Positions 16,024 to 23,357 of a stretch of 64,000 bases of DNA are shown here, in pieces. The position numbers and the translations under genes are program-made. The notes under the pieces are model-generated. The model was not told where the DNA came from. It was given only the letters and a program-made list of their open reading frames with translations, and searched no databases. How positions within the stretch are numbered: position 1 is the stretch's first letter; each line of letters begins with the position of its first letter. This DNA is from Streptomyces sp. CB02058 (GTDB lineage: Bacteria > Actinomycetota > Actinomycetes > Streptomycetales > Streptomycetaceae): assembly GCF_001905505.1 (NCBI RefSeq), contig NZ_LIPG01000003.1, positions 682,001-746,000 on the forward strand, given 5' to 3'.

Positions 16024-17373
16024 ATGACCGGTTCCCAGCCGGCCCTGACGGGCCGGGCCACGCTGCTCGCTGTGTTTCTGGCACTCGTCGGAACACTCGC
16101 CGCCCTGGCGGCCCCGACCCGGGCCGCGACCGTGCCGCGCGCCACGGTCAACCCCGTGATCTTCGTCCATGGGCAGGAGGGCTCGGCCCAGCAGTGGCAG
16201 GCGCAGGCCAAGCGGTTCTCCAGCAACGGCTACCGCGACGACCTGCTGTACGTCCATGAGTACGACACATCCATCGCCACCGACGACCACGCGATCGCCG
16301 GACTCGAGACACTGGTCGACTCCGTCCGGGCGCGCACCGGCGCTTCCCGGGTCGACCTCCTGGCGCACTCGCGCGGGACACGGGTCGCGCAGGCGTACCT
16401 CTCCGTGCCGGAGCGCGCGGCGGAGGTCGCGAAGTACGTGAACCTGGACGGCCGCACCGCCGCCGCCCAGCCCGGCGGGGTGCCCACCCTGGCCATCTGG
16501 AGCAGCCTCCAGCCGAACGGGTCGATCGGCGGCGCGCTCAACGTCCACGAACCGCAGGCGGGCCACACGGAGAGTGCCACCTCCGCCGAGAGCTTCGGCC
16601 ACATCTACGCGTTCCTCCGGGGCAGGGAGCCGCTCACCACACGCGTCCTGCCCGAGCCTCCCGCCTCCGTCGTGATCGCGGGACGCGCCGTGCACTTCCC
16701 GCAGAACAAGGGGCTTCCGGGCCGGCTGGAGGTGTGGCGGCTGGACCCCGCCACCGGAGCCCGGGCGGGTCTCCTGCCGCAGCACGTGGTGAAGACCGGC
16801 GCGGACGGAGCCTTCGGCCCGCTCGCGGTCGGCGGACGCGGACACTACGAGCTCGCCCTCGTCCGCTCCGGCGAGCGCACCAACCACTTCTACTTCGAAC
16901 CCTTCGAGCGCGACGACCGTTTCGTCCGGCTGCTCGTCTCCCCGCCCGGCGGGGTCGCGGACTCCATCGACGCGTGCCCGGGACAGACGGCGCTCACCGT
17001 GGTCCGTGCGCGCGAGTGGCGGGCCGGCACGGCCGACGACGACCGGCTCCGGATCGGCGGGGCCGATGTGCTCAACCCCGCCGTGTCTCCGCAACTCCGG
17101 CAGATCCTCGGCCTGTTCGCCTTCGACAAGGGGTGCGACGGGGTCAGTCATCTGGATGCGGCACTGCCGCCCTTCGACCGCGTACCGTTCCTGACGGCGA
17201 CCGACCTGTCCCTCCCGGCCGACGAGCGGGGCAGGGGCCCGATCCCGGTCACGCAGACGATGCGCGGGACCGGCGGGGTGGACGAGACCGTCGTGGTGCC
17301 GAACTGGCCGTCCGACCGGCACACCGTGTCGTTGCTCTTCAAGGACTACGTGGACGTCCCGTCCGGTGGGTGA
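16024..17373 (+). CDS. Secreted lipase/esterase-like protein
   Basis: 449 residues, ATG 16024 with CGGAGGA upstream. A Sec signal ends near APTRA (about residue 34). The catalytic domain has VNPVIFVHGQEGSAQQW and the nucleophile elbow LLAHSRGTR, where AHSRG replaces the common GHSxG. After about residue 215 there is a beta-rich domain (VVIAGRAVHFPQNKGLPG and onward) like the accessory half of some actinobacterial alpha/beta-hydrolase lipases. Extracellular ester hydrolysis is likely; the substrate is not known. Confidence 0.78.
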   Translation: MTGSQPALTGRATLLAVFLALVGTLAALAAPTRAATVPRATVNPVIFVHGQEGSAQQWQAQAKRFSSNGYRDDLLYVHEYDTSIATDDHAIAGLETLVDSVRARTGASRVDLLAHSRGTRVAQAYLSVPERAAEVAKYVNLDGRTAAAQPGGVPTLAIWSSLQPNGSIGGALNVHEPQAGHTESATSAESFGHIYAFLRGREPLTTRVLPEPPASVVIAGRAVHFPQNKGLPGRLEVWRLDPATGARAGLLPQHVVKTGADGAFGPLAVGGRGHYELALVRSGERTNHFYFEPFERDDRFVRLLVSPPGGVADSIDACPGQTALTVVRAREWRAGTADDDRLRIGGADVLNPAVSPQLRQILGLFAFDKGCDGVSHLDAALPPFDRVPFLTATDLSLPADERGRGPIPVTQTMRGTGGVDETVVVPNWPSDRHTVSLLFKDYVDVPSGG

Positions 17374-17432: not shown

Positions 17433-18605
17433 TCAGTTCGTGACGCGCACCGTCTCGACCCACGCGGGAGCGGCGGGCGCGGACGGGCCGACGAGCGCGG
17501 CGACGATCCGGCAGGACGGGATCTCGTCCGGCCACGGGGTGAGGCCGTCCGTCAGGACGACCACGACGGAGGGGCGCTCGCGCACGGCCAGCGCCGCCGC
17601 GATCCCCACCCGCATGTCGGTGCCACCGCCGCCGGCGAGCGCGATCTGCTCGGCGGACGTCACTCGGGAGACGGCCCGGACATCGGCGTCGCAGGCGAGG
17701 ACGGTGACCCGGTTGCCCCGGATCCCCACCTCCCGCAGCACACCGGTCACCTCGGCGAGCGCGGCGGCGATCTCCTCGTCACCCATCGAGCCCGAGGTGT
17801 CGATGACGACCGCCACCCTGGGCAGGGGCCGGCGCAGGCTGGGCAGCACGACGCCGCGCAGGGCCGTGCTCCGGCGCGCGGGGCGGCGGTAGGTGTAGTC
17901 CACCGCCCCGGCCGCCCAGGCGGCTGCCTCCCGTACGGCCCCCGCGAGCACCTGCCGCCAGTCGACCGTGGGTTCGAGGACCTCGTCCGCCCACCGCTTC
18001 CAGCCACCCGGCAGGGTCCCTCTGGCCCGCACATGGGCGCGCATGGCCTCCGCGGTGTGATGGCGCAGCGACTCCGCCTCCACGCCGCCGACTCCCGGCG
18101 GCCCCGAGGTCGCGCCCGATTCCCAGGGGGACGGCTCGCCATGGGCGCCCGACCCGCAGTCGTGGATCCAGGTGGAGCGCGGCAGCTCCGTCAGATACGC
18201 CTCGAAGAGCTGCCCCTCCGGGAGACCGAAGAGGCGGGGCTCCAGCCGCCCGGCGGGCAGGGGCAGCCCGTCGGCGACCAGGTCGTCGTTGATCTCGCAG
18301 TCCTGGGCGACGTTCACCCGGTGCCTGTCACGCCGGTCCGCCGCCGGCAGCAGATCCGCGCGGCCGTGATGGTCGCGCAGCAGATGCGCGACCTCGTGCA
18401 CCCAGACCGCCGCCAGCTCCGCCACCGGGGTCCGGTCGACGAAGCCGGGCGAGACGTAGCAGCGCCAGTGACGGTCCACGCCCATGGTCGGCACCTCGTC
18501 GCTGGGCACCACCGTCAGGGCGTACAACGCCGAGGCGAGGTACGGACGGTCCGTCGCCGCCCGGTACCGCGCCGCGAGCAGCTTGGTGGTGTCCAGCTCA
18601 GCCAC
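17433..18605 (-). CDS. vWA-domain protein with HExxH metallopeptidase-like N-terminus
   Basis: 390 residues, GTG start at 18605, overlapping the upstream ATPase gene by eight bases. The N-terminal part has WVHEVAHLLRDHH, an HExxH zinc motif of the DUF2201 type. The C-terminal vWA domain starts at VAVVIDTSGSMGD, an intact MIDAS (DxSxS), with GGGGTDMRVGI and VVVLTDG supplying the remaining metal-site residues. MoxR ATPases and vWA proteins act together as metal-insertion or remodelling chaperones. Last gene of a four-gene operon. Confidence 0.85.
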   Translation of the reverse strand: MAELDTTKLLAARYRAATDRPYLASALYALTVVPSDEVPTMGVDRHWRCYVSPGFVDRTPVAELAAVWVHEVAHLLRDHHGRADLLPAADRRDRHRVNVAQDCEINDDLVADGLPLPAGRLEPRLFGLPEGQLFEAYLTELPRSTWIHDCGSGAHGEPSPWESGATSGPPGVGGVEAESLRHHTAEAMRAHVRARGTLPGGWKRWADEVLEPTVDWRQVLAGAVREAAAWAAGAVDYTYRRPARRSTALRGVVLPSLRRPLPRVAVVIDTSGSMGDEEIAAALAEVTGVLREVGIRGNRVTVLACDADVRAVSRVTSAEQIALAGGGGTDMRVGIAAALAVRERPSVVVVLTDGLTPWPDEIPSCRIVAALVGPSAPAAPAWVETVRVTN

Positions 18606-19806
18606 CCCGCGGCAGGGCGCCGGACTGCCGCAGCAGGTCCAGGAAACCGTCGATGCCCGGCGGCACCGGCCAGTCCAGGCTGCGCATGGCCGCCAGGTCG
18701 ACCGCGGCCCGGGCCGCCACGTCGGGCACCCCCGCGTCCACGGCCTTGGCCAGAACCGCCCACCCGGCCTCCCAGCGCTTCCGGGTCGGCTCGCCCTGCA
18801 CCGCGGCGACGACCGCGATCAGGAAGGCGAGCTGCCGGTCGCCCCGCTCGGGCAGCGCGAAGGCGTCCGGGTCCGCGAGCACACGGTCCGGGTCGGGCAG
18901 GTCGAGGTGGTCCAGGTACGACAGCAGCTCGATGCCCGCACCGTCCCCGACGGCGCCGGTGAGCGCCGCGGCGACCGCCTCCCGCCCGGTCCCCGCCGCG
19001 TAGCCGGTGGCCAGCAGCCGCAGGGCCATGTCCCAGGTCCTCGGGGACGGCCACGCGCGGCCCCGGCTCTCCGCGTCGGCCGGGATGTGGTGGACCAGCC
19101 CCGGACGTGCCGTCAGGAACCCGGAGACGGCACCCCGGGCCCGCGCCGCGGCGCCGGAGACCTTGGCCGGGTCGACCACCGGCACCCCCAGGGCCGGCCA
19201 GGTCCCCGCCATGCCGCGGGCGACGGTACGCGGGTCGTGCGTCCACCGGAGATGGACGAAGCGGTTGGCGAGCGGCGGGCTGAGGTGCCAGCCGTCCGCC
19301 GCGCTCGACGGAGGATTGGCCGCCGCGACGATGCGCACGCTCTCCGGCAGCCGCAGGCTGCCCACCCGCCGTTCCAGTACGACCCGCAGCAGCGCGGCCT
19401 GCACGGCGGGAGGCGCGGACGACAGCTCGTCGAAGAACAGCAGCCCCTGACCGGAGCGGGCGAGCCGGACCGCCCAGTCCGGGGGCGCCATCGGCACACC
19501 CGTCACCGCCGGATCGTCCCCCACGACCGGCAGCCCCGCGAAGTCCGACGGCTCGTGGACGCTCGCGATGACGGTCTCCAGCTCGAGCCCCAGGCCGGCG
19601 GCGAGCTGCTCCAGGCCGGCGGACTTGCCGATGCCGGGCTCGCCCCACAGCAGGACCGGCTGATTGGCCGTCACCGCCAGGGCGAGCGCCTCGAGCTGCG
19701 GGCTCTCGGCGGGCTCGGTGCGGGTGACGCGCAGGCGCCGGTTGAGCTCGTCGGCCGCTTCGAGGGGGCCGGAGGGGCGGGCCCGGTCCCCCGTGGTCGT
19801 GCTCAC
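18598..19806 (-). CDS. MoxR-type AAA+ ATPase
   Basis: 402 residues, GTG 19806 in a GTGA overlap with the preceding stop. Walker A is LLWGEPGIGKS, Walker B is LLFFDELSS, and RIVAAANPPS holds sensor 1; LANRF supplies the arginine-finger region. ATP-driven remodelling partner of the downstream vWA/HExxH protein. Overlapping coding on both sides means the four proteins are made together in similar amounts. Confidence 0.88.
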   Translation of the reverse strand: MSTTTGDRARPSGPLEAADELNRRLRVTRTEPAESPQLEALALAVTANQPVLLWGEPGIGKSAGLEQLAAGLGLELETVIASVHEPSDFAGLPVVGDDPAVTGVPMAPPDWAVRLARSGQGLLFFDELSSAPPAVQAALLRVVLERRVGSLRLPESVRIVAAANPPSSAADGWHLSPPLANRFVHLRWTHDPRTVARGMAGTWPALGVPVVDPAKVSGAAARARGAVSGFLTARPGLVHHIPADAESRGRAWPSPRTWDMALRLLATGYAAGTGREAVAAALTGAVGDGAGIELLSYLDHLDLPDPDRVLADPDAFALPERGDRQLAFLIAVVAAVQGEPTRKRWEAGWAVLAKAVDAGVPDVAARAAVDLAAMRSLDWPVPPGIDGFLDLLRQSGALPRGG

Positions 19807-21560
19807 TGCTGCCCGTCCTCCCCGTCCTTGTTCATGAACCACCGCTGGTACCAGTCGGCACCCGTGCCCGGGTGCTCCGCGGCCAGCCGCTCCCGGAGGA
19901 ACGCGAGGTCCTCGCGCTTGTACCGGTGGATCAGCTGGTCGAGGGAGAGTCCCTGCGTGTCCGTCACGTCGATCCTGGCCCCCGCGTCGATCAGCGCCCG
20001 TACGAGCGTGGGGGAACCCCGCTCGCTCACCGCGACGCTCAGCGGGGTCCGGCCGAGCTGGTCCCTGGCCTCCAGGTCGAGCCCTGCCGCCAGCAGCCGT
20101 GGCAGGACCGCCTCGTGGTCGAGCAGTGGCAGCACGTGCAGCAGTCCCCGGCGTCTGGCGTTGCGCACGCGGAGGTCGACCCCGGCGTCCAGCAGCTCCA
20201 GGACTCCGGCGGTGTTCCCGTGCTGGATGTGCAGGAACAGCTCCTTGCGCTGTGCACGCAGCGCCTTCGGGAGACGCCCCTGCCCCGTCGTGCAGGAGTG
20301 CTCCACCGCGAAGCAGCCCGAGACCGCTCCACCGAACGCCCGCATGGCGCTCTCGCGCTGCCGTTCCTCCTCGGTGTGCGGCGAACGCAGGGCACCGGCA
20401 CGGAAGGACACCTCGTGCCACTCGCCGCGGCAGCGCACGCGCACCGGAGCCGGCAGGGACGGCCCGGGCGGCCCGAAGGGCCCTTCGAGCGCGGGGAACA
20501 GGGCCCTGGCCACCAACGGGTGCAGCCACTGCGGCGGTACGACACCCGCCCGCAGCAGATCGAGGTCGCGCGGACGCCGCCAGGCCGTCTCCGGCAGGTA
20601 GGCGGCGGGAACGGTGGAGGAGGCCTCCACGATCGTGGCCCTGAGCCGGCCCCCCGCGCTGTGGTCCGTGAGCTCCAGCAGGATGTGCCTCCGCCAGTGG
20701 CCGGCGGCCAGGAAACCCTCGCTGCCGACGGCGGCCGTCGCCCGGCGCACGGCCGACTCGAGGCGGGGAAGGTCGATCGCGGACGCGCGGAGGATCGCCC
20801 CGGGGTCCATCCGGTACATCGACCGCTCGGAGGCGGGAGGCGTCGGATCCCACTCGATCCCCGCCGCGGCGAACGCCTCCGAGATCTCTCCCCGCTCGTA
20901 CAGCAGTGTCACCCGCTCCGCCCGGGCGGCGGCGTCACCGTCACCGGACGCCCCGAGCTCCTGGCGTGTGAGCGGGGTGCCGTCGTCGTGGAAGAAGGGG
21001 ACCCGGCCACCTGCTCCCACGGCCGCCCGCAGACCGTCCGTACGCCGGGAGTCCCACAGATGCCGGACCGAGCGCCAGTCCTCGGTGCCGAGGGCGAACA
21101 GACCGGGGGAGGACTCCCCGGGCACGGCACCGAAACGCAGCGAGAGCCGCTGGCTGCCCTCCACCATCGGGGGCGTACGCAGATGGAGGTACGGCGCGTG
21201 CGGCAGACCGGACCCGACCCGGTGCCCGGCGTATCCGGCGAGCACCACGGTCCGGTCGGGGGCGAGCGTCGAGCGCCCTCCGAGGACCCGGGGCAGGTGC
21301 CAGCGCACCAGGTCGGGCACCAGATGGAGCAGGTCGGCGACGAGGGCCTCCGCCACGGCCGTACTGTGCGTGGAGGCCACCTCGACGGGATCGAAGTCCA
21401 CGTCGACGTGGGCCGCGGCGAGCGCGCCCCGCCAGTCACCGGCGCGCCGACGCTCCGCGGAGCGCTCGATCATGCCGCGGGGCACGGCGTACCGCCGGAC
21501 CTGCCAGAGGCTGGTGGCCTCCTCCGCGGTGAGGAACCGGTCCTCCGGACGGAGCCTCAC
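19803..21560 (-). CDS. Ankyrin-repeat protein with uncharacterised N-terminal region
   Basis: 585 residues, GTG 21560 overlapping the LRR gene's stop (GTGA). The first 430 residues have no family I recognise. They include FDPVEVASTHSTAVAEALVAD and a segment with GHWRRHILLELTDH that might be globular enzyme-like or scaffold. Residues about 440-560 carry ankyrin repeats ([40 protein letters not shown]). It probably presents a target or partner to the MoxR-vWA pair; that is inference from operon structure only. Confidence 0.72.
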   Translation of the reverse strand: MRLRPEDRFLTAEEATSLWQVRRYAVPRGMIERSAERRRAGDWRGALAAAHVDVDFDPVEVASTHSTAVAEALVADLLHLVPDLVRWHLPRVLGGRSTLAPDRTVVLAGYAGHRVGSGLPHAPYLHLRTPPMVEGSQRLSLRFGAVPGESSPGLFALGTEDWRSVRHLWDSRRTDGLRAAVGAGGRVPFFHDDGTPLTRQELGASGDGDAAARAERVTLLYERGEISEAFAAAGIEWDPTPPASERSMYRMDPGAILRASAIDLPRLESAVRRATAAVGSEGFLAAGHWRRHILLELTDHSAGGRLRATIVEASSTVPAAYLPETAWRRPRDLDLLRAGVVPPQWLHPLVARALFPALEGPFGPPGPSLPAPVRVRCRGEWHEVSFRAGALRSPHTEEERQRESAMRAFGGAVSGCFAVEHSCTTGQGRLPKALRAQRKELFLHIQHGNTAGVLELLDAGVDLRVRNARRRGLLHVLPLLDHEAVLPRLLAAGLDLEARDQLGRTPLSVAVSERGSPTLVRALIDAGARIDVTDTQGLSLDQLIHRYKREDLAFLRERLAAEHPGTGADWYQRWFMNKDGEDGQQ

Positions 21561-22699
21561 CGGTAGACGCTCCGGATCGCGCGCAGGTCCGGGTGGGCGC
21601 CGTGGTCCGGGCGCAGCCGGGTGGCGAAGGACCGCTTCACCTTGCGGGGGAGCCCGGGGCCGAGCCCGACGTACTCCAGCCGGCAGTCCGCGCCGACCGC
21701 GCCCAGCAGGGCCTTCGCCCCTCGCCCCGTCAACCCGGTGTGGGCCAGTTCGAGGCGTCGCAGAGGGCTTCCGGGCAGGGCCGTGGCCAGCGCGTGGGCG
21801 CCCGCGTCGCCGGTCGTGTTGCCGGTCGCCCCGAGGCTGCGCTCCGACATGGGCCGCCCGAGGTCGAGGGACTCGATGCCGCCGAGCGCGTCGGCCAGGG
21901 CGCCGGCGCCGGCCGGCCCGATCCCGTTGCCGCCGAGCCCGAGCCGCACCGGGCGCTCCGGACCGGCCGCGGCACCGGCGAGCACGGCGGCCCCCGCGTC
22001 GCCGAGGTGGTTGGCCGACGCGTACAGCTCCCGCACCCCCGCGTCCCGGATCAGCGCGGCGAGGAGCGGAGCGTCGTCCGGGCCGAGCCCGTTGCCGCCG
22101 AGGAAGAGCCGCTCCAGCGGCTCTACCCGCGCGGTCAGCGCGTCGAGCAGTGCCTCCAGACCGGCGGTGGTGACCCCGGTGTTGACGAGGTCCAGCGTGC
22201 GCAGCGAGGTGGTGCGGGCCAGCATCGGCACGAGCGCCCGGACGCCCGCGTCGCCCAGCGGATTCCGCTTCAGCCACAGCGCCCTGACGGTGGAGTCCTC
22301 GCTCAGCGCGCCCGCGAGCGCGGCGGCGCCCTCGGCCCCGATGCGGTTGCAGCCGAGATAGACCGTCCGCAGCCCGTGTCCGCGTACGTCGCGCAGAGCG
22401 TCCGCCACCGAGCGCGCGCCCTCGTCGCCGAGGGAGTTGGTGCCGAGCAGGACGTGACCGGCGTGCGGCGACCGGGCGAGGGCAGGCATCAGCAGGGCGG
22501 CACCGGCCGCGCCGAGACCCTGCTTGCAGAGATCGACGCGCCCGTCGGCCCGCAGTGTCCCGACCGGGAACACCTCGTCGGACCCGACCGTTCGCTCAGC
22601 TCCGAGCCGCTCCACCAGCGGGTCCAGCGCGGCCGCATCGACGAGCGGAACGTCCGGGTGCTCGATCGCGGGGCAGCGCACGGGCATCGGCTGCGACAA
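21557..22699 (-). CDS. Leucine-rich-repeat protein (ribonuclease-inhibitor type)
   Basis: First gene of the operon. TTG 22699 lies five bases from GGGGGAG, whereas ATG 22687 is 17 bases away, so the TTG is preferred (380 residues; 376 from the ATG). From about residue 60 there are some eight to nine repeats of the LxxLxLxxNxLGDEGAxALAxAL type, of roughly 28 residues, as in ribonuclease inhibitor and NLR proteins. No signal peptide is seen, so it is cytoplasmic. Likely a protein-binding adaptor for the downstream ankyrin and MoxR-vWA proteins. Confidence 0.78.
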   Translation of the reverse strand: MSQPMPVRCPAIEHPDVPLVDAAALDPLVERLGAERTVGSDEVFPVGTLRADGRVDLCKQGLGAAGAALLMPALARSPHAGHVLLGTNSLGDEGARSVADALRDVRGHGLRTVYLGCNRIGAEGAAALAGALSEDSTVRALWLKRNPLGDAGVRALVPMLARTTSLRTLDLVNTGVTTAGLEALLDALTARVEPLERLFLGGNGLGPDDAPLLAALIRDAGVRELYASANHLGDAGAAVLAGAAAGPERPVRLGLGGNGIGPAGAGALADALGGIESLDLGRPMSERSLGATGNTTGDAGAHALATALPGSPLRRLELAHTGLTGRGAKALLGAVGADCRLEYVGLGPGLPRKVKRSFATRLRPDHGAHPDLRAIRSVYR

Positions 22700-22795
22700 C
22701 AGAACTCCCCCAGTCCCCTCGCCGGACGCCGGGCCGGACGGGGACCGTTCACGCCCACCACCCGCCCAGCGCGGGCGCGTTCCTCCACGAACAGG

Positions 22796-22871
22796 TGGCA
22801 AGACCGGCCGGATTCGAACCGGCGTCCTCCAGCTTGCTGCGTGGGCGCGACGACCTCTGCGCTACAGCCTT
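22796..22871 (-). tRNA. tRNA-like element without a usable anticodon loop (possible pseudogene)
   Basis: On the minus strand, 76 nt can be folded as a tRNA. A seven-base acceptor (AAGGCTG with CGGTCTT, two wobble pairs) is followed by TA, a D-stem GCGC/GCGC, a perfect five-pair T-arm with TTCGAAT loop, discriminator G and an encoded CCA. The part that should be the anticodon arm (CCACGCAGCAAGCTGG) has no normal five-pair stem with seven-base loop and no U33, so no anticodon can be read. It is either a degenerate tRNA gene or a structured tRNA-like RNA. Bases flanking the acceptor extend pairing to ten. Confidence 0.5.
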
Positions 22872-23006
22872 GCCGTGCGTGATCATAGCGGCCACCGGCT
22901 CGAAATCGCACTCCAGTACGTCGAACGACGTGGGGGTGCGTAGAGTTTCGAACATGTTCAATAATGGCCGGGTCCAGTCACCCCGTGCACCGAGAGGCCC
23001 GTCACG

Positions 23007-23357
23007 ATGAGCCGTACCCGTATTTCTCGCGCTGCCCGGATCACGGCCGTCGCCTATGTCGTTGCCATGGCGGCCGGTGGACTGATCGTGGGGGCCCAAG
23101 CCCCCTCGTCCGCGGAGTCGTTGCTCTTCGAGCTGTCCCAGCCCGGGCTGAACGTGCTGTACGTGTTCGTCCTCATGCCGCTCGTCGCGCTTCTCGGTGA
23201 CACCGGCGGGGGAGCGGGCGACGCCGGGAGCCTCGCTCTCGCCTGCGGGCTGGGGGCGGCCGTGAACGTCCTGCTCGTGCGGGCGGCCGTCTGCGCGGCC
23301 CGCGCGGTCGCGGCGGACCTCCCCGTGTGCAGGAAGCGCCGCACCCCCGCGCGGTGA
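23007..23357 (+). CDS. Small membrane protein of unknown function
   Basis: 116 residues, ATG 23007 after GAGAGG. Hydrophobic segments at about 12-30, 48-65 and 73-95, and a basic C-terminus (CRKRRTPAR). It resembles short Streptomyces membrane proteins annotated only as hypothetical (possibly the SCO4225 type). Its stop codon lies inside a large hairpin shared with malate synthase. No function can be inferred. Confidence 0.6.
   Translation: MSRTRISRAARITAVAYVVAMAAGGLIVGAQAPSSAESLLFELSQPGLNVLYVFVLMPLVALLGDTGGGAGDAGSLALACGLGAAVNVLLVRAAVCAARAVAADLPVCRKRRTPAR

Follow-up and report, generated by a model that had tools for sequence, protein, structure and literature searches.

A conserved tRNA-mimicking RNA gene upstream of an LRR-ankyrin-MoxR-vWA operon in Streptomyces: a possible RNA-protein system

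What does a MoxR ATPase with a vWA metalloprotease-like partner respond to when it is encoded together with two repeat proteins, and are the four proteins the whole of the unit? This question is raised by a locus in a stretch of 64,000 nucleotides (nt) of Streptomyces sp. CB02058 (contig NZ_LIPG01000003.1, positions 682,001 to 746,000), which in its full length is called the window in the following. Four genes on its minus strand (17,433–22,699) encode a leucine-rich repeat (LRR) protein, an ankyrin protein, a MoxR-type ATPase and a vWA protein with an HExxH motif, with successive overlaps of 4, 4 and 8 base pairs (bp). A first-pass annotation had claimed overlaps of 4–8 bp for these genes, which is exactly what is found, and its coordinates delimit the four genes correctly; they omit a gene for a transfer RNA (tRNA)-like RNA upstream of the LRR gene (Table 1). 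This RNA gene is conserved and fixed in its position, and its product conforms to a cloverleaf with an intact elbow and with an end that is base-paired in place of the free NCCA. It is very probably a real component of the locus. That the unit as a whole forms an RNA-protein system, in which a tRNA-mimicking RNA acts with the ankyrin, LRR, MoxR and vWA-metalloprotease proteins, is suggested by the sequence comparisons at a little less than an even chance.

The RNA is the sole tRNA-like gene that ARAGORN finds in the window (22,796–22,871, minus strand, labeled “tRNA-Ala AGC”), and it is located between the LRR gene and its upstream neighbor. The Rfam tRNA model (RF00005) scores it with 36.9 bits compared to a gathering score of 29, skipping the anticodon arm as a local end. 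It ranks third lowest of the 71 tRNA hits of the genome, and both lower hits are sister copies on contig C14. For comparison across species, the vWA protein was searched against a collection of 84,980 genomes, each standing for one species, resulting in 201 relatives, the best 80 of which were kept as the 80 loci described here. The RNA core, with up to four mismatches allowed, is present on the same strand upstream in 69 of them; in ten of the other 11 the view stops at a contig end or at the edge of the examined stretch, and the last is a truncated operon. Moreover, 121 genomes of the genus and 345 of the class were drawn, in which genomes were counted as operon genomes when they had a MoxR with 80% identity or more over its length. 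The RNA adjoins the operon in the same orientation in 11/11 operon genomes of the genus and in 9/10 of the class, i.e., in 18 of 19 distinct genomes; these and the other co-occurrence counts in genus and class are uncorrected for shared ancestry, the genomes being not phylogenetically independent. Several genera keep the RNA, and they belong to no fewer than two families (f1, f17). The pattern used on whole genomes was exact so that diverged copies would be missed. A covariance model of the RNA (R1) searched at the level of the phylum matched all 296 genomes, genuine tRNAs being scored as well, and among the matches listed members of at least 81 bits occurred in 2/296.

Judged by its predicted structure, the RNA probably does not work as a tRNA. 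Distinct sequences with duplicates dropped were compared throughout (sets of 93, 59, and 37 RNA copies; L073 is among the 59 operon copies only since its sister was a duplicate), and 46 distinct genuine tRNAs of the same genome, taken from the 71 hits with most long-arm ones left out, served as the comparison set. The acceptor helix comprises 10 bp, three extra pairs occupying the tRNA positions N73, C74, and C75. The extra pairs −1:73, −2:74, and −3:75 are formed in 86, 88, and 79 of the 93 copies versus 8, 11, and 12 of the 46 genuine tRNAs, and the window copy has all three in place of the 7-bp acceptor stem and unpaired N73-CCA end of a tRNA. In 43 diverse copies the proposed cloverleaf is paired in 90.9% of cells with 14 pairs changed on both sides, and its covariation score of 0.353 drops to at most 0.127 after sliding by 1–3 columns. 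The acceptor helix shows both-side changes in 8/10 pairs and has 92.6% of its cells paired. With tRNA numbering assigned from the alignment, the elbow positions T8, G15, G18, G19, C48, T54, T55, C56, and A58 are invariant and A14 is nearly so. The predicted minimum-energy fold of the window copy is the four-arm cloverleaf with the 10-bp stem; this fold is not significantly more stable than those of shuffled sequences (z −1.5), and folding by energy only is not decisive.

The arm at the anticodon position varies between the copies. The window copy forms 3/5 anticodon-stem pairs in the canonical register and not the 5-bp stem with 7-nt loop of a tRNA, and the anticodon label given by ARAGORN to an operon copy does not mean that an anticodon exists. 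Among the operon copies (n = 59) five form the canonical 5-bp stem in full and 18 a shifted one that closes a 5-nt loop; in the stand-alone copies (n = 26), found apart from the operon, the canonical stem is formed in 17 and the shifted register is full in seven. Nine of these 26 have the 13-nt string GGTCTCCAAAACC in common with the anticodon arm of the genome’s genuine tRNA-Trp, and eight more have 11–12 nt of it. The genuine tRNA with the closest body, i.e., D and T arms, is a tRNA-Pro. The genome itself carries two different genuine tRNA-Trp (CCA) genes with unlike anticodon stems. One may ask whether an ordinary or degenerating tRNA, or an integration site, stands here by chance, as both ARAGORN and Rfam call the RNA a tRNA. 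This is barely credible given the end sealed by covarying pairs, the fixed position, the conservation in several genera and the low rank among the 71 hits, and this candidate was dismissed. Since standard tools label them tRNA genes, RNAs of this kind have probably been recorded as ordinary tRNAs and passed over.

The presence of the RNA follows that of the ankyrin protein. In the genus, 13 ankyrin-type genes occur in 12/121 genomes and the RNA is upstream of 13/13. Two of these are orphan genes (in genomes G082 and G053) that keep the RNA without relatives of the LRR, MoxR or vWA genes in the examined stretch, and G082 has no MoxR match anywhere in its genome. The orphan RNA-ankyrin pairs are the loci L118 and L122, and at L079, where the LRR gene is missing, the RNA is located directly ahead of the ankyrin gene. 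A paralog that matches the ankyrin protein only to about residue 460 and does not contain ankyrin repeats is present in 63/121 genomes of the genus. The RNA nearest to it is at least 56 kilobases away in these 63 genomes by comparison of coordinates with the exact RNA pattern, and the covariance model identified no family-level RNA in 18 examined paralog loci, the best score of 42.5 bits being at the level of genuine tRNAs. Because all 13 ankyrin-type genes, the orphan pairs and L079 have the RNA while the paralog without ankyrin repeats does not, the smallest recurring unit is the RNA together with the ankyrin protein. In the genome of the window itself, contig C8 (184000–202000) carries a second MoxR-vWA pair beside an N-domain paralog; this paralog has no ankyrin repeats, and neither an LRR gene nor a tRNA-like RNA is present at that locus. 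At L118 (4044–6510) the orphan tRNA-like RNA and ankyrin gene are followed by another protein gene, the product of which we take, by eye, to be of the TerD family.

The four protein genes form a conserved, patchily distributed unit. In the 80 loci the genes overlap or are at most 30 nt apart at 65/69 measurable LRR-ankyrin, 63/74 ankyrin-MoxR and 71/75 MoxR-vWA junctions so that the co-occurrence expected for a common unit is borne out. The operon-type MoxR (at least 83% identity, full length) is present in 11/121 sampled genomes of the genus. Universal presence in Streptomyces, named beforehand as an observation that would refute a conflict or signaling role, is thus not found, and a universal housekeeping function in the genus was rejected on this distribution. 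RavA-ViaA and other MoxR/vWA pairs act as chaperones and are encoded by adjacent genes as in the window, and the called neighbors of the operon look metabolic by eye. A chaperone with a housekeeping or cofactor-handling function, for which the RNA would be a leader or a relic, is nevertheless very unlikely, since only a minority of the genus carries the operon and the RNA is left unexplained. ViaA is not known to be a DUF2201 metallopeptidase, nor is RavA-ViaA known to have an RNA associated with it.

The sequence identities of the proteins bear on their possible roles. Full-length matches are 67–85% identical to the window protein for LRR, 72–88% for vWA, 79–93% for MoxR and 43–71% for the ankyrin protein. 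Similarly, aligned relatives are 69–84% identical for the LRR protein (19 relatives) and 44–70% for the ankyrin protein (45 relatives), which is the most variable of the four. As the LRR protein shows much the same conservation as the vWA protein, it would suit a fixed partner better than a fast-changing invader and is presumably no arms-race sensor; the more variable ankyrin protein could be a sensor. Accordingly, the earlier proposal that the repeat proteins are sensors in a vWA-MoxR conflict system can be upheld in part: the ankyrin protein could serve as such, while the LRR protein does not look like one and no third component of a ternary system was recognized. Were the LRR and ankyrin proteins to sense an invader and the MoxR and vWA protease to respond, the RNA being incidental, the patchy distribution and the variable ankyrin protein would fit, and MoxR-vWA pairs are known from predicted conflict systems of multicellular bacteria (PMC7159879). 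However, an incidental RNA would not persist in 69/80 loci and with orphan ankyrin genes, and the LRR protein is not fast-evolving, which makes this explanation quite improbable.

The region around the RNA suggests how it is transcribed. A TANNNT box is located 4–8 nt ahead of the acceptor stem in 72/93 copies compared to 3.3% of shuffles; it is absent from the examined 31 nt in 4/93 copies, three of which are stand-alone. For the 37 loci with the LRR gene at most 400 nt from the RNA, the −10-like box is conserved in the alignment, and alignment columns within the RNA have a mean conservation of 0.96. The mean falls to 0.60 for the 60 nt ahead of it, the last 15 of which reach 0.81, and is 0.73 for the 25–108 nt that separate the RNA from the LRR start. 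No terminator-like site was found between the RNA and the LRR gene. A scan of 22,600–23,010 for sigma-70 consensus promoters and terminators gave no hit, the −10 box alone failing the two-hexamer rule of the scan, and no −35 box was identified. Due to the −10-like box, the conservation profile and the lack of a terminator in this interval, transcription probably starts at the RNA’s own acceptor stem and may continue into the operon genes.

These data can also be read such that the RNA is only a cis-acting leader, i.e., the 5′ end of the operon mRNA, which controls expression by mimicking a tRNA toward a regulator or a processing enzyme. The operator of E. coli thrS is a precedent for a tRNA-mimicking leader, and the common strand, the promoter-like box directly ahead, the short distance to the LRR start and the terminator-free gap would all be expected. 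This is the main rival of an RNA-protein system, though we regard it as unlikely: stand-alone copies are remote from these genes, even within the same genomes, and most of them carry a −10-like box of their own, as would suit action in trans. At 7/80 loci, two RNA copies stand in tandem.

Going by the stand-alone copies, tRNA mimics may form a broader family among actinobacteria. The genome of the window contains three further copies, one on C12 (52.8 bits) and two on C14. Copies with a tRNA-Trp-like loop are present in 9/11 operon genomes of the genus versus 8/110 others, one of which is G070; another stand-alone type is present in 2/11 versus 7/110. The enrichment of Trp-loop copies in operon genomes is a hint toward action in trans. 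Stretches of 74–85% similarity were found in 17 Streptomyces plasmid records, six of which were inspected. In the plasmids NZ_CP108523.1, NZ_CP108839.1, and NZ_CP102516.1 (L097–L099) the locus-tag numbering has a gap at the tRNA-like RNA, perhaps because an RNA gene annotated there in the original records is missing from the plasmid table; some of these stretches have gaps at other places too. No general conserved neighbor of the stand-alone RNAs was found in 20 stretches and L093, save for two RNAs followed by ankyrin genes and for the synteny of L113, L114, and L116. In all three of the latter a stand-alone Trp-loop RNA is followed by genes for a 210-aa (amino acids) and a 267-aa protein, and in two of them a ROK-family-like gene is located upstream.

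DUF2201, MoxR, ribonuclease-inhibitor-like LRR and ankyrin repeats are known families. The pairing of a MoxR ATPase with a vWA metalloprotease-like partner, as assigned in the first-pass annotation, is correct according to the Pfam domains and the HEVAH motif. The Walker A (GEPGIGKS) and Walker B (LLFFDE) motifs of MoxR can be read in its sequence, and the vWA protein matches DUF2201_N (E = 2e-30, 106.9 bits, cut-off 23.2) and VWA-like DUF2201 (E = 1e-19, 71.1 bits, cut-off 26.4), making it a predicted metallopeptidase. For the LRR protein the best profile match in the PDB is the ribonuclease inhibitor 1dfj (E = 2e-36), a predicted likeness. The ankyrin protein has its repeats at about residues 441–540 (Pfam), and residues 1–430, pointed out before as an unfamiliar region, prove to be both well modeled and without a known match. 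The AlphaFold model is confident, with a predicted local distance difference test score (pLDDT) of 90.9 for the full-length protein and a mean of 87.5 for the N-domain, and the N-domain has no fold match at E ≤ 0.001 to a PDB chain (Foldseek) or a viral model. Rows at Z ≥ 2 are too weak to claim a RelE/ParE-type fold (RegB 2.6, ParE2 2.1 and 2.0, HigB2 2.1 and an unrelated LAMTOR-Rag chain 2.0), and the search with the full-length model was dominated by the ankyrin repeats. A β-α-α-β-β-β order that appears repeated in both halves of the modeled N-domain is a lead only. The ankyrin protein had no match in plasmids at E ≤ 1e-30. PADLOC reported no system match beyond generic stretches, namely an ankyrin stretch (PDC-M72A) and weak RtcR AAA stretches.

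Several known systems resemble the unit in parts. Rsr (Ro60) contains a vWA domain, and in the Rsr system this vWA protein is the RNA binder. The RNA repair operon rsr-yrlBA-rtcBA, encoding Rsr and YrlA, likewise encodes a tRNA-like RNA together with proteins; the authors of that work name competitive inhibition of an anticodon nuclease by the tRNA-like domain of YrlA as one possibility, while the nuclease leaves YrlA itself uncut (PMC7790460). Unlike in Rsr-YrlA, no TROVE, RtcB or RtcA is among the four proteins of the window (for TROVE, no Pfam match at E ≤ 0.1), the vWA part belongs to a DUF2201 putative metallopeptidase, and the RNA follows the ankyrin protein. The pseudo-tRNA tRNA-Other of Bacillus cereus is likewise tRNA-shaped, takes no part in translation and is found within larger RNAs (PMC3399842). 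In contrast to the window RNA it flanks a genomic island, and the abstract names neither a linked protein operon nor a sealed extended acceptor stem. The MoxR-vWA ternary conflict systems of Kaur et al. 2020 (VMAP, iSTAND, FtsH, and β-propeller) also place MoxR beside vWA and further components in actinobacteria; in that paper the words “leucine-rich” and “ankyrin” are absent and “tRNA” occurs once (PMC7159879). Membership in these four classes is not supported, as Pfam recognized no third component: VMAP, iSTAND, FtsH, and β-propeller had no match at E ≤ 0.1 in the four proteins, Pfam coverage of all four components not having been checked, and bpMoxR scored 20.4 bits (cut-off 27) on MoxR itself. 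No description of the RNA or of the operon was recognized in the open-licence literature of PMC, which is no proof of absence. Since the RNA is by structure probably no working tRNA, neither TROVE nor a ternary third component was recognized by Pfam and no published description was recognized, the combined RNA-protein system, whose function is putative, would be new.

For an RNA-protein system the following mechanism can be proposed. The RNA would be transcribed from its acceptor stem, possibly onward into the operon, and would be neither charged nor active in translation. As a tRNA look-alike it might be held by the N-domain of the ankyrin protein, perhaps also by the LRR protein; binding by the ankyrin protein is, in our view, evenly balanced between true and false. 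The mimic might then be bound, cut or displaced, for example by a tRNA-attacking enzyme, after which MoxR and the vWA-HExxH protein would remodel or cleave a target. That the RNA senses or baits an attack directed at tRNAs is speculative, and we consider it doubtful. Equally doubtful is the broader suggestion of a new class, in which an end-sealed, uncharged mimic with a variable arm at the anticodon position would be bait or decoy for tRNA-attacking enzymes such as competitor toxins and phage nucleases, the ankyrin protein would read its state, the MoxR-driven vWA metalloprotease would respond, and dispersed stand-alone mimics, many with the tRNA-Trp loop, would add to the range of baits. Provided that the RNA does function in it, the MoxR-vWA system would be built in a novel manner, with a tRNA-mimicking RNA. 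An experimental answer to what MoxR-vWA metalloproteases react to comes within reach, because the 80-nt RNA is simple to delete.

Several observations weigh against a working RNA-protein system. The support for it comes from genes and sequences. As a family, the RNA is independent of these proteins, because stand-alone copies exist in genomes without them: 14/26 RNA-bearing genomes of the genus have no ankyrin-type gene, and 3/13 of the class draw have no operon MoxR. The truncated operon at L070 has MoxR and vWA without the RNA, its ankyrin gene being reduced to the C-terminal repeats and its LRR gene absent. In G388, the exception among the 19 operon genomes, the RNA and MoxR are on different contigs. 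G070 was not counted as an operon genome, since its MoxR match is a fragment (77% identity, 154 residues) below the identity threshold; no RNA is in view next to this fragment. The orphan ankyrin gene of G053 has an in-frame stop, and a full operon is found elsewhere in that genome. Finally, there is no link to phages: an exact 20-mer of the RNA had 0 matches in viral contigs, no phage or viral record was hit by the RNA, and the sole phage match of the ankyrin protein was a generic ankyrin stretch.

Table 1. Features of the RNA-operon locus, in window positions (aa, amino acids).
Feature	Positions	Strand	Description	Basis
LRR protein	21557–22699	−	TTG start, 380 aa; ribonuclease-inhibitor-like repeats	Pfam LRR_6, E = 8e-18
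Ankyrin protein	19803–21560	−	585 aa; N-terminal domain (about residues 1–430) without family, C-terminal ankyrin repeats	Pfam
MoxR-type AAA+ ATPase	18598–19806	−	402 aa	Pfam AAA_5, E = 8e-8
DUF2201 putative metallopeptidase with VWA-like domain	17433–18605	−	390 aa; HEVAH and DTSGS motifs	Pfam
tRNA-like RNA	22797–22874	−	10-bp extended acceptor stem, D arm, altered arm at anticodon position, T arm; elbow intact	ARAGORN, Rfam, predicted cloverleaf, covariation
−10-like promoter box TATGAT	22882–22887	−	7 nt ahead of the first base of the tRNA-like RNA	Sequence and alignment

The vWA gene is the last of the unit, and the next gene downstream (16,024–17,373) is convergent. No obvious defense gene is among the called neighbors of the operon, as judged by eye from the first 60 residues. 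The gene directly upstream of the LRR gene encodes an SDR oxidoreductase in 24 loci, all of which have titles other than Streptomyces, and in the 22 of these with the RNA in view it is located upstream of the SDR gene. Ahead of the SDR part, L034 (1301–2836) and L037 (1615–3018) contain a CxxC...CxxC stretch resembling a zinc ribbon by eye, which Pfam reports below threshold and in L034 only. Finally, extra coding stretches are inserted between the LRR or ankyrin gene and MoxR in L057, L064, and L066, pushing the operon start outside the examined stretch; the one in L064 is a second ankyrin-type gene.

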